From Labilibacter sediminis (GTDB lineage Bacteria; Bacteroidota; Bacteroidia; Bacteroidales; Marinilabiliaceae): a stretch of 64,000 nucleotides of DNA. The notes under the pieces are model-generated. The model ran no database searches and was not told the origin of the DNA. It worked only from the letters and a program-made list of their open reading frames with translations. Each line of letters starts with the position of its first letter. Within the stretch, counting starts at the first letter, position 1. A program made the translations under genes and the position numbers. The stretch spans positions 372,001 to 436,000 of the forward strand of contig NZ_VCHY01000002.1 of assembly GCF_005877885.1 (NCBI RefSeq). Reading direction: 5' to 3'. This document shows positions 7,931-11,559 of the stretch, piece by piece.

Positions 7931-8061
7931 TCATTGTACAATGATGAAAAATATTAACAAATGAAACGAGCATAAAAATTCAATTATCTAATTTATACAA
8001 AGTAGGATGATTGAATTTTCTTGGGAGTTCCATGCAGCAATTGAAAATTATAAACGCATGA
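7931..8061 (+). repeat. Interspersed element, copy A, in the helicase leader
   Basis: Bases 7961-8002 are identical over 42 bases to the reverse complement of 47887-47928. Similarity continues outward, with a shared GAGTTCCAT block near 8026-8034 and shared ATGAAA-type ends, giving a ~130-base element. It fills the region just before the helicase start. The rest of the 468-base gap from 7590 is AT-rich and holds a possible -7 box TATCTTCG at 7840-7847 and no gene. Confidence 0.75.
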
Positions 8062-10298
8062 AAAATCAATTAACCTTACCTCAAATAGTATCACGTTTTA
8101 TCAACAACACCAACCAAAATGTTTTTCTCACCGGAAAAGCAGGAACCGGTAAAACTACATTCCTAAGAAACATTACCAAACATACACATAAAAGTGTTAT
8201 AGTGGCAGCTCCCACCGGAATTGCAGCCATCAATGCAGGCGGAGTTACCCTACACTCACTCTTTCAACTTCCTTTTGGATCCTTTATCCCTGATAACAAC
8301 GGGTTGCAAAATCAGCGTGTAAATGCCCTGGTAAATACTCCACGTACTTTACTTAGCTCATTTCAAATGCATAAGACCAAGCGTAATATGCTTAAAAAAA
8401 TGGAGTTGCTGATTATTGATGAGGTAAGTATGCTGAGAGCAGATTTACTAGATGCCATCGACCTGATTTTACGTAGTGTTAGGCGAGAAAGAAACCTGCC
8501 TTTTGGAGGAGTTCAGGTATTATTTATTGGCGACATGCTGCAGTTACCTCCTGTAATTAAGGATGAAGAATGGAATTTATTGGCCCCCTATTACCCCGGC
8601 GTTTATTTTTTTCATGCACAGGTACTAAGGCAAACTCCTTCTTTATATGTGGAACTGGAAAAAATCTATCGCCAATCAGATTCAAGCTTTATCCATTTAC
8701 TCAACAACCTGCGCAACAATAAAATGACACAGGCAGATGCCGATCTGCTAAATCAATACTATCAGCCCGGCTTTGAGCAAAAAAGCGATGACGGTATTAT
8801 ATTATTAACCACTCATAACCGTATTGCCAACGACAAAAACCTAAATGCTTTGCGCGATATCAAAGAGAAATCGGTATTTTTTAATGCAGAGATCAGTGGT
8901 GATTTTAGCGAATACAGCTACCCTGCCGATCAACGCCTTGAACTTAAAAAAGGTGCCCAGGTGATGTTTACCAAAAATGATTACTCGGGCGAACAAAGAT
9001 ATTTTAACGGCAAAATAGGTATCGTCAGCAAACTGAACAAAGATGAAATTGAAGTAAGCTTTAACGATGGTTCGGAACCAGCCATAGCAGAACCTTACCT
9101 CTGGGAAAACAAAAAATATACGGTAAACAAAGAAACCAACGAAATTGAAGAAAATATAGTCGGCAAATTCGAACAGTACCCCTTAAAACTAGCCTGGGCT
9201 ATTACCGTGCATAAGAGTCAGGGCTTAACATTTGATAAAGCCATTATAGATGTGGCCAATGCCTTTGCGCCCGGACAAATATATGTGGCTCTTTCCAGAC
9301 TGAGTTCACTTAACGGACTCATCTTAACTTCTCCAATACCCCAGGAAGGCATTAAAATAGATCAGTCCTTATCTGAATTTGCAGTTCATAAAAAAACAGC
9401 TGAAGATCTGATGCCTATCCTTCAGCAAGAATCAAAAAAGTACTTTAACTATTTTATATTGACTTCTTTTGATTTTGGCAAATTATTACAAGAGCTCAAC
9501 ATTCATTTAGCGAGCTATACTAAGGATGCTAAAAGGTCAGTAAAACAGCAGCACAAAGATTGGGCTTACACCTTACTAAAGGCAACTGAGCCCCTTAAGG
9601 GCATTGGCGATTCTTTTAGAGCGCAAGTGAATCACATTATACAAACTGGCGATTCAACTTACTTATCTCATCTAAAAGAAAGAGTAGATAAAGCTGTTGC
9701 CTACTTTGAGCCATTGATAAAAAACCTTCACGATCAGGTTCGAACGCAATGTGGCGAACTCAAAGGTGTTAAGGGCACAAAAGCATATCACACAGAATTA
9801 ATAGAGCTTTCGAACTTATATTACGGACAGCTACAAACCATTTACAAAGCACAATCTTTGGTTGATTCTTCCATAAACGGAACCGATTTTGATAAAGAAT
9901 CCATTAAAAAACCAAACCTGTCTGATAGCAGAGCGGAAGAAGTAAAATCAAAAAAGAAAAAGAAAACCAAAACAGTTAAAGAAAAGAAGTCTGATACAAA
10001 ACTCATTACATTTCAGTTGTATAAGGAAGGAAAATCTGTTAGGGAAATTGCCAAAGAACGTTCATTAACCTCTGGAACTATTGAAGGACATCTTGCACAT
10101 TATATTCAAAGTGGTGAGCTGGACATCAATGATTTTGTGGGGAAAAGCAAACAAATCGCCATTGAAAAGGCCATTCATAAAACAGATACTTTTGCACTAA
10201 CCCCAATTAAAGAAGGACTTGGCTCAGACTATACGTACGGAGAAATTAAAATGATGGTGGCTCACATGCAGTCTGAAGCAAAGAAAAAGGACAGCTAG
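8058..10298 (+). CDS. PIF1/RecD-like ATP-dependent helicase with C-terminal HTH domain
   Basis: The 746-residue superfamily 1B helicase has a Walker A motif GKAGTGKTT (about residue 26), Walker B LLIIDEVSM and motif III FIGDMLQLPPV. A UvrD/RecD-type C-terminal motif reads LAWAITVHKSQGLTFDKAII, followed by YVALSRLSSLNG. The C-terminal ~110 residues follow a lysine-rich linker (KKKKKTKTVKEKK) and form a helix-turn-helix of the kind found at the end of RecQ proteins (REIAKERSLTSGTIEGHLAH). It probably unwinds DNA in repair or replication. The start at 8058 (MKNQLTLPQIV) is preferred because the upstream in-frame ATG at 8007 lies inside repeat copy A. Confidence 0.88.
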   Translation: MKNQLTLPQIVSRFINNTNQNVFLTGKAGTGKTTFLRNITKHTHKSVIVAAPTGIAAINAGGVTLHSLFQLPFGSFIPDNNGLQNQRVNALVNTPRTLLSSFQMHKTKRNMLKKMELLIIDEVSMLRADLLDAIDLILRSVRRERNLPFGGVQVLFIGDMLQLPPVIKDEEWNLLAPYYPGVYFFHAQVLRQTPSLYVELEKIYRQSDSSFIHLLNNLRNNKMTQADADLLNQYYQPGFEQKSDDGIILLTTHNRIANDKNLNALRDIKEKSVFFNAEISGDFSEYSYPADQRLELKKGAQVMFTKNDYSGEQRYFNGKIGIVSKLNKDEIEVSFNDGSEPAIAEPYLWENKKYTVNKETNEIEENIVGKFEQYPLKLAWAITVHKSQGLTFDKAIIDVANAFAPGQIYVALSRLSSLNGLILTSPIPQEGIKIDQSLSEFAVHKKTAEDLMPILQQESKKYFNYFILTSFDFGKLLQELNIHLASYTKDAKRSVKQQHKDWAYTLLKATEPLKGIGDSFRAQVNHIIQTGDSTYLSHLKERVDKAVAYFEPLIKNLHDQVRTQCGELKGVKGTKAYHTELIELSNLYYGQLQTIYKAQSLVDSSINGTDFDKESIKKPNLSDSRAEEVKSKKKKKTKTVKEKKSDTKLITFQLYKEGKSVREIAKERSLTSGTIEGHLAHYIQSGELDINDFVGKSKQIAIEKAIHKTDTFALTPIKEGLGSDYTYGEIKMMVAHMQSEAKKKDS

Positions 10299-10559
10299 CG
10301 AAACCCGTATTTAAGGTGGCGAAATGGTCATCCAAGTGAGCGAAACGTATAAAAAATGAGCGAACTACTCAAAAAGTTTTCAATGTACATTTCGCCCACT
10401 CAAATTACCTTTTCGCTCTGTCATCAATTAATTTCGCTTACTGTTTATGAAGTTCATTTGGTTTTGAAGCACTTCGCTTGCTTTAATATTTATTTCTCCA
10501 ACTAATTTACCTGATGGGCTTACTTCTATAGCTTTTCGCTGAATGATTTAAGAGTTCGC
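10298..10559. repeat. Dyad-symmetric array of GCGAAA/TTTCGC motifs with 20-21-base period
   Basis: The 373-base gap after the helicase holds no intact gene. GCGAAA or GCGAAC starts at 10298, 10319, 10340 and 10360. The inverse (T/C/G)TTCGC starts at 10390, 10411, 10432, 10472, 10534 and 10554, and degenerate units fall at 10452 and 10493. Spacings are 20 or 21 bases, except across the centre (30) and one skipped unit (41). The four left units mirror the first four right units about base 10378. Units often end in AAGTGA-like bases. The function is unknown; it looks like a multi-site protein-binding region or a long imperfect RNA hairpin. Confidence 0.75.
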
Positions 10560-10591
10560 CGACTCGTGAAGAAGAATAGCCCTAATCTCTT

Positions 10592-10671: not shown

Positions 10672-11559
10672 GTGGCCAAAGCAAAACAAAACATACCAAC
10701 TTATAGTCTGCAATCATTTAGTCACCCACAATATGCCGGGCGACAGTTTCATGTGGAACCTTTTGATGCACATCGCCATTTTCAGGTAAGTTACCCGCAC
10801 CGCCACGATTTTTTTGAAGTTTTGTTTTTAACCAAAGGTTCAGGCTATCATGTTATTGACAGCTCAAAATACAAGATTGAACCACCTTGTATCTTCTTTA
10901 TGTCTCCAGGACAGGCCCATAAACTTGAACTTTCTTCCGACATAGAAGGCTATATTTTTATTTTTACGGCAGAGTTTTACCTCATCAATAAAAACAACCA
11001 AAACCGCTTACTCGAGTTCCCTTTCTTTTTTACCATCAACCAGGATAACCCTCCTTTATTGCTATCGCAAGAATCGGAGTTTTCCTTTTTAGAGCAACTG
11101 TTTTTAAAAGGTATTGATGAACTGGAAAAAGGCGAAGATTTTAGCACCGAACTATTACGCTCATTACTGGATACCATCCTAAATTACTCATCATCATTAT
11201 ACCAATCAGATGATAAAAGTGTGAGTTCGGGGAAAGGACATCTGTTGGTAAAAAGATTTTTTCAGCTGGTTGAGGAAAACTACCAAAACAACTTAAGCGT
11301 TAATCAATATGCCGAAGCGCTGGCCATTACACCCAACCACCTGACACAAACCCTGAAACAATTAACCGGGCGCACTTCCAACGACATACTGCAATCGAAA
11401 CAAATACTCGAAATAAAACGATTACTGGTTCATACTAATCTGTCTGTGACTCAGATAGCCGACCAGCTTCATTTCACAGATCAATCATATTTCACAAAGT
11501 TCTTTAAAAAGGCAACAGGTGTTACTCCCCTGAAATTCAGATCTGAATTCATACGATAA
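10672..11559 (+). CDS. AraC-family transcriptional regulator
   Basis: The 295-residue product has an N-terminal cupin sensor domain, with PHRHDFFEVLFLTKGSGYHV near residue 43 and a later MSPGQAHKLEL segment. A C-terminal pair of helix-turn-helix motifs spans about 195-295 (SVNQYAEALAITPNHLTQTL and LSVTQIADQLHFTDQSYFTK, then FFKKATGVTPLKFR). It should bind DNA in response to a small ligand. The start is a GTG at 10672; no better ATG is in frame. The gene lies between the GCGAAA array and ilvC, with 198 bases to ilvC. Its target is unknown. Confidence 0.88.
   Translation: MAKAKQNIPTYSLQSFSHPQYAGRQFHVEPFDAHRHFQVSYPHRHDFFEVLFLTKGSGYHVIDSSKYKIEPPCIFFMSPGQAHKLELSSDIEGYIFIFTAEFYLINKNNQNRLLEFPFFFTINQDNPPLLLSQESEFSFLEQLFLKGIDELEKGEDFSTELLRSLLDTILNYSSSLYQSDDKSVSSGKGHLLVKRFFQLVEENYQNNLSVNQYAEALAITPNHLTQTLKQLTGRTSNDILQSKQILEIKRLLVHTNLSVTQIADQLHFTDQSYFTKFFKKATGVTPLKFRSEFIR

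Follow-up and report, generated by a model that had tools for sequence, protein, structure and literature searches.

A two-armed GCGAAA repeat array of Labilibacter sediminis belongs to a class dispersed over related genomes, some members of which lie upstream of PQLLE family genes

In plasmid iterons, direct repeats with a spacing of about two helical turns precede the gene that encodes the cognate binding protein (Rep). In TIGR-Tas, processing of the array units is reported to yield 36-nt RNAs, and the associated protein contains a Nop domain (PMC12045711), and in type III toxin-antitoxin RNA repeats inhibit an endoribonuclease (PMC5086642, PMC8860590). Here, we have analysed a repeat array in a 64-kb stretch of the L. 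sediminis genome (the stretch is called the window, and the genome is G000 in our numbering), and have found that it is a member of a two-armed GCGAAA class dispersed over unrelated places in related genomes. The arrays are not described in the papers covered, a coverage outside which most subscription papers and all bioRxiv-only preprints fall, and seemingly they form a repeat-array family without earlier description.

The whole array spans positions 10278 to 10560, on the evidence of core counts, chain search, shuffles and a model match. It holds ten GCGAA/TTCGC cores within 262 bp; the next densest 262 bp of the window have 3. The outermost left unit (10278 to 10297, plus strand) was found by the chain search, has one mismatch (GCAAAG) and lies within the 3' end of a helicase gene. 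Three GCGAAA units with exact cores follow on the same strand at 10298 to 10318, 10319 to 10339 and 10340 to 10359. The hinge (10360 to 10395) runs from the last left core, GCGAA at 10360, to the first right core, TTCGC at 10391, i.e., 31 bp from start to start, and the same step of 31–33 bp is seen in other arrays. Beyond it lie inverted units on the minus strand (10396 to 10437) with exact TTCGC cores at 10412 and 10433, followed by the outer right arm (10438 to 10560, minus strand), which is decayed and in register, with TTCGC at 10473, 10535 and 10555, a one-mismatch core at 10494, and empty slots near 10453 and 10514. In the chain search, the steps of which were constrained, the array reads 20, 21, 21, 20, 31, 21, 21, 40, 21, 41, 20, so that the 20/21-bp spacing is held across the empty slots. 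The hinge model, which had this array in its training set, matches it at 10319–10437 with an E of 2.8e-13. None of the listed ORFs of at least 80 aa crosses the array.

The original prediction had described ten 5-base cores mirrored about base 10378. All ten are present and the centre is correct, but the minus-strand starts were given 1 base early, the true ones being 10391, 10412, 10433, 10473, 10535 and 10555. The longer TTTCGC core is exact at 10390, 10411, 10432 and 10534 and absent at 10472 and 10554, and of the two degenerate units proposed, the one at 10494 is an in-register core with one mismatch, while the slot near 10453 carries two. The claimed excess over chance is borne out by 20,000 dinucleotide shuffles of the surrounding 400 bp, which have a mean of 1.06 cores and a maximum of 6; none of the 20,000 has ten cores, and none has a run of four at 20/21 spacing.

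According to the ORF list and domain scan, the left neighbour of the array is a PIF1-like helicase gene with HTH_40 (8007 to 10298, plus strand), whose last codons overlap the first units. The right neighbour is an AraC-type regulator gene (10672 to 11559, plus strand), which begins ~110 bp after the array end and whose homolog loci show no conserved link with the array. This gene pair is kept in G005, G007 and G008, and named genomes of Plebeiobacterium and Labilibacter have it as well; two of the named ones share their flank with G008 and G005. The gap between the two genes is 31–48 bp in five measured syntenic loci versus 373 bp in the window, which means that ~300 bp are extra in the window; in G007 it is short and array-free in the stretch printed, where the script did not locate the helicase stop. 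At the helicase–AraC site of the syntenic relatives the array is absent, and the AraC link of the original prediction is not supported.

The search of related genomes, which the original prediction had proposed, made use of a pattern of three cores, a pattern for the hinge and a sequence-only model trained on 15 hinge regions, two of which are near-duplicates. The same two-armed architecture appears at unrelated places in 11 of 71 family genomes. On reading, 8 of these genomes were judged clear (G000, G008, G016 with five places, G018, G027 with six places, G066, G067 and G071) and 3 to have one weak arm (G002, G033 and G065), while the array of G005 is doubtful and G026 and G068 carry one-armed relatives. 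Model matches at E ≤ 0.01 occur in 16 of the 71 genomes, and those of G075 and G082 and the second matches of G002 and G005 were read as chance. Order-wide, with stricter filters, only G000 and G163 among 393 genomes match at E ≤ 1e-4, the latter again being read as chance. The core may change throughout an array, as in two G027 arrays (GGGAAA) and in G026 (GCTAAA).

The chain search admitted only 20/21-bp steps and 31–33-bp hinges, and because of this restriction the spacings it gave (20 bp in 57 steps, 21 bp in 79 and more in 14, with hinges of 31–33 bp in 15 of 15) are partly so by construction. In 11 arrays obtained with the three-core pattern, which does not require the hinge, the flip between exact cores measures 31–33 bp in 8 and 52–53 bp in 3, the longer flips corresponding to one extra unit with a flawed core. 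The core phase in 11 GCGAAA arrays, both arms included, has a best period of 10.3–10.4 bp with a mean vector strength of ~0.9, in arrays detected by patterns that already demand 19–22-bp steps. This points to helical phasing of the sites, as had been suggested.

Repeats of other kinds were also observed in these genomes. Another array family, with an 11-bp period (TGCGAAGnnnn), i.e., one helical turn, occurs at L051:3981-4046, L007:1502-1567, L054:3289-3376 and L023:684-770 (G000, G005, G008), and the flanks are similar in two G000 copies. In G027, one-direction arrays with an exact 21-bp period lie at L049:5387-5555 and L050:6176-6365, and in L049 one strand can be read as heptad repeats (R-L-L-F-D-A-F like), which may be coding or chance. 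Decayed repeats resembling TTTTCGG/TTTCAATTT extend over a long stretch (L045:300-900) next to an array of the same genome.

Five of the ~20 GCGAAA-class arrays (in G008, G018, G027, G066 and G067) sit directly upstream of genes whose starts look alike on reading the flanks, with the nearest core roughly 50–110 bp from the start codon. The products, of ~218 aa, belong to NCBIfam NF052641, the 'PQLLE family' (E 2.1e-65 for the L091 protein), and all five places are among the PQLLE matches of the genome search. Of 71 family genomes, 49 have a PQLLE gene (48 above the cut-off), with up to 11 matches per genome; it was found in 0 of 14 control genomes, and order-wide in 40 of 393 (24 above the cut-off). 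The protein consists of two tandem similar halves of ~103 residues (hhalign probability 99.3, E 1.1e-20). No convincing Pfam domain, nuclease family, Nop domain or Rep domain was matched by the PQLLE proteins scanned, and no PDB relative was found by sequence. In L423 and L431, and among the matches of G062, G071 and G072, two PQLLE genes of differing type stand in tandem, ~1 kb apart. Of 142 neighbour proteins, 10 match DUF2027 and 10 match Smr, perhaps as the conserved setting of one PQLLE clade. A defence context was rejected, as among the first 25 Pfam families none occurs in more than 10 of the 142.

For a test that makes no use of the core, we have taken 91 distinct PQLLE genes from 95 loci, a set that does not include some over-cut-off matches, and have compared banded self-alignments at lag 20–22 with 30 shuffles, with z > 3 as positive. 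Upstream periodicity of 20–22 nt is present in 67 of the 91 genes (57 at z > 5) and absent at z > 3 in the other 24, whereas five other lag bands upstream are positive in 1–8 of 91, and lag 20–22 downstream in 7 of 88. A second set comprises 18 further genes from 26 order-wide loci, and in it 14 of the 17 genes outside the family are positive upstream, while the single gene inside the family is negative. Downstream, 3 of these 18 are positive, namely L506 (z 66, no upstream array) and L504 and L503 (upstream array present). Long arrays are plain by eye, with 19 units before L444, 18 before L460 and 12 before L503. We have further obtained 48 chains that score at least 3.5 (the best of 30 shuffles being 2.7), 19 of which contain both orientations, and in these the last core lies a median of 106 nt from the start codon. 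The promoter motif TAnnTTTG takes no clear position.

The PQLLE genes that have arrays come from many clades. The cores are uniform inside one array and differ between arrays and between PQLLE clades. In cross-genome pairs of 71 arrays, the array k-mers track protein similarity (Mantel r 0.208, with 0 of 2000 permutations as high), although common descent alone could yield this signal. By eye, the unit profile of many arrays shows two blocks, namely a strong core of 6 bp and, past a gap, a weaker one lying about one turn further, in an alignment that used the core and with 6-mer seeding that raises the core positions. In G026, a one-armed orphan array (L374) is built of the same unit as the array that precedes the PQLLE gene at L466, and in G027 the orphan arrays and the PQLLE-linked array are both GCGAAA. 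The G026 orphan (L374:2775-3060) is made of about a dozen near-identical 21-bp units with the core GCTAAA, and no PQLLE gene is present in 9 kb.

In the flanks fetched for the ~20 GCGAAA-class arrays, a PQLLE gene is missing in around 15 cases, one of them the array of the window. The link with PQLLE genes was not visible from the window. Its core and hinge are of the same type as in arrays upstream of PQLLE genes, but the window contains no PQLLE gene, and of the six matches in G000 none is on the same contig. Moreover, the five GCGAAA-clade PQLLE proteins are mutually 40–72% identical, while the three over-cut-off proteins of G000 show merely 21–39% identity to them. The array is therefore an orphan, as are others in G016, G065 and G071, and since G000 has no PQLLE protein of the matching clade, the copy is probably inert in this genome, or a relic.

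From the helical phase, the two blocks of the unit, the two halves of the protein, the match of core with protein and the tolerated inverted arms, we infer that protein–DNA binding fits best. That is, each unit, with its 6-bp core and the weaker block about one helical turn on, would be a putative site for the cognate PQLLE protein, which itself consists of two tandem repeats of ~103 residues. With two turns between sites, or three where the hinge intervenes, all would face the same side of the DNA, so cooperative loading of the protein is possible, and the loaded array might act as an autoregulatory or nucleoprotein platform; its purpose could be autoregulation, DNA organisation or something stranger. 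The copy in the window would have been dispersed, or left without its gene. Because there are many orphans and the hinge search was constrained, we give this reading somewhat less than even odds.

A different explanation is that the arrays are dispersed repeats which a transposase, either RAYT-like or of another kind, mobilises in trans, that they have no host function, and that the link with PQLLE is secondary. Empty sites speak for it. The window site is empty in relatives, and so is that of the G065 copy, which lies between the stop codon and the terminator-like hairpin of a gene; this locus is arrayless in G066 (protein 95%) and G069 (86%), while G070 (71%) is unalignable there. In G008, the array, the PQLLE gene and a DUF4377 gene fill ~2 kb that is absent before recG in G003, and the 1.5 kb before recG in seven other genomes has no match to the array or the PQLLE gene. 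The orphan majority of the GCGAAA arrays would also be explained, and a RAYT-like gene follows the PQLLE gene in G066 and G067 (NF047646, E 1.6e-13 and 1.8e-10, both below the 80-bit cut-off). Against this, Y1_Tnp is found in just 2 of 142 neighbour proteins, no target duplication is seen by eye, and the 67 of 91 upstream arrays are left unexplained; we regard such an origin as unlikely. Reading of ORF lists showed no transposase next to the arrays with one arm in G026, G068 and G027, and the idea of transposon ends was rejected.

A phage or plasmid origin was considered too and discarded. Two viral scans gave 104 and 26 stretches; 2 of the 104 passed the two-armed test, and the 11 stretches read from both scans resembled other repeats or chance. 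Blastn returned no match on plasmids and three on phages, all of them short (at most 12% of the query), and with one protein or a five-row alignment as query no PQLLE relative appeared in viral contigs, plasmids or phages. Two viral contigs (L331:3400-3600 and L280:8600-8760) carry alternating TTTCGCTCC/GCGAA short palindromic repeats, an array of a different kind.

The array might also act as a transcribed RNA, whose tandem or hairpin units bind the PQLLE protein in the way of type III toxin-antitoxin or of a sponge RNA. The position upstream of the gene, at a median of 106 nt in the 48 chains, would suit this, and as a single strand the window array folds better than its shuffles (z −2.5 and −3.2), but such folds are expected from the symmetry of the arms alone. 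Mirror partners have a mean score of 5.2 (n=54) and non-partners 5.1 (n=437), and while the inner pair alone is higher (6.6), its windows overlap at the hinge. A compensatory change is found in 0 of 5 predicted pairs, the inverted arm would carry a different RNA motif, and Rfam yields only sub-threshold miRNA matches, none near the gathering score. Since there is no covariation and mirror partners are no more alike than others, the long RNA hairpin put forward in the original prediction is disfavoured, and an RNA function in general seems to us quite unlikely.

A further explanation to consider is that an active diversifying process writes the units, which would then carry information in the manner of CRISPR or TIGR arrays, with short constant parts, changing inserts and one cognate protein. 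Close pairs hint at this: between G065 and G066 (protein 95%) the flank blocks agree by 77–95% and the array by 47–70%, between G013 and G031 (protein 99%) the distal flank agrees by 70–85%, the array by 40–55% and the gene side by 60–72%, and L472/L473 show a similar dip. The uniformity of cores within an array and their difference among arrays would fit as well, and so would the position of one PQLLE clade next to cas genes of type II. However, the array is weak in one member of each of the first two pairs (z 3.0 for L477 and z 1.7 for L434) and the stretch is AT-rich, 11 further pairs (protein 81–93%) are too diverged to read, a weaker conserved block lies inside the variable part, no nuclease or Nop domain was found, and some arrays have two mirrored arms. 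We consider active diversification improbable.

As to the cas genes, by Pfam domains the array and PQLLE gene are flanked in G066, G067 and G018 by a Cas9 gene on one side and cas1 on the other, and adjoin a Cas9 gene in G027; NCBIfam identifies Cas9 for L091 only and type II Cas1 for L088 and L091, and Cas1 of L087 is by Pfam. In G003, G006 and G019 the PQLLE gene is within ~1 kb of a cas1, three type II Cas1 are among the 142 neighbour proteins, and in G008 no cas gene stands beside PQLLE in the ORFs scanned. A solo-Cas1 or casposon was dropped once Cas9 and type II Cas1 appeared.

Finally, that the array is the operator of the AraC-type gene, for which its position alone speaks, is very improbable and as a conserved function not supported, as none of 80 AraC-homolog loci has an array (no run or hinge of the window type, and at most 5 cores per 600 bp upstream) and the gap is so much shorter in the five syntenic loci.

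With the arrays, the named family NF052641, to which no function is assigned, gains a genetic partner that is open to direct testing, each protein on its own array. PQLLE and the arrays could even be a new bacterial module, where a protein of two repeats would read, and might also rewrite, hypervariable two-turn DNA sites with lineage-specific cores, with one lineage drawn into type II CRISPR-Cas loci and the array of the window as its solitary relic; we offer this as a speculation that is rather unlikely in full. If the arrays are indeed actively diversified, they would add a further hypervariable non-coding array system in bacteria, and from the placement of one clade between cas9 and cas1 one may ask whether it has a role in CRISPR-Cas loci.

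The arrays may be compared with the closest systems described so far. NF052641 is the family of the partner gene, and its entry is a protein model, silent on array or function. As in type III toxin-antitoxin (PMC5086642, PMC8860590), repeats adjoin one gene, but the PQLLE proteins scanned match no nuclease family. Like TIGR-Tas (PMC12045711), the arrays have tandem units and locus-specific repeats beside a single protein gene, although the units are 20–21 bp and no Nop domain was found. REP/RAYT elements (PMC3733652, PMC6006769) are likewise short, dispersed, intergenic and palindromic, and a RAYT-like gene, with a match below the cut-off, is near two copies, whereas the PQLLE arrays are tandem 20–21-bp units at low copy number. 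With regard to iterons, the suggestion of an iteron-like region stands for the layout of two-turn phased repeats and fails for the Rep domain, which was found neither in the two neighbours nor in PQLLE. The PQLLE arrays also differ in lying on chromosomal contigs, with up to 11 PQLLE matches per genome, in having much diverged units and, in some cases, two arms, and in that the one PQLLE protein queried has no plasmid match. Yet they resemble plasmid iterons in being two-turn direct repeats just upstream of the gene of the presumed cognate binder.
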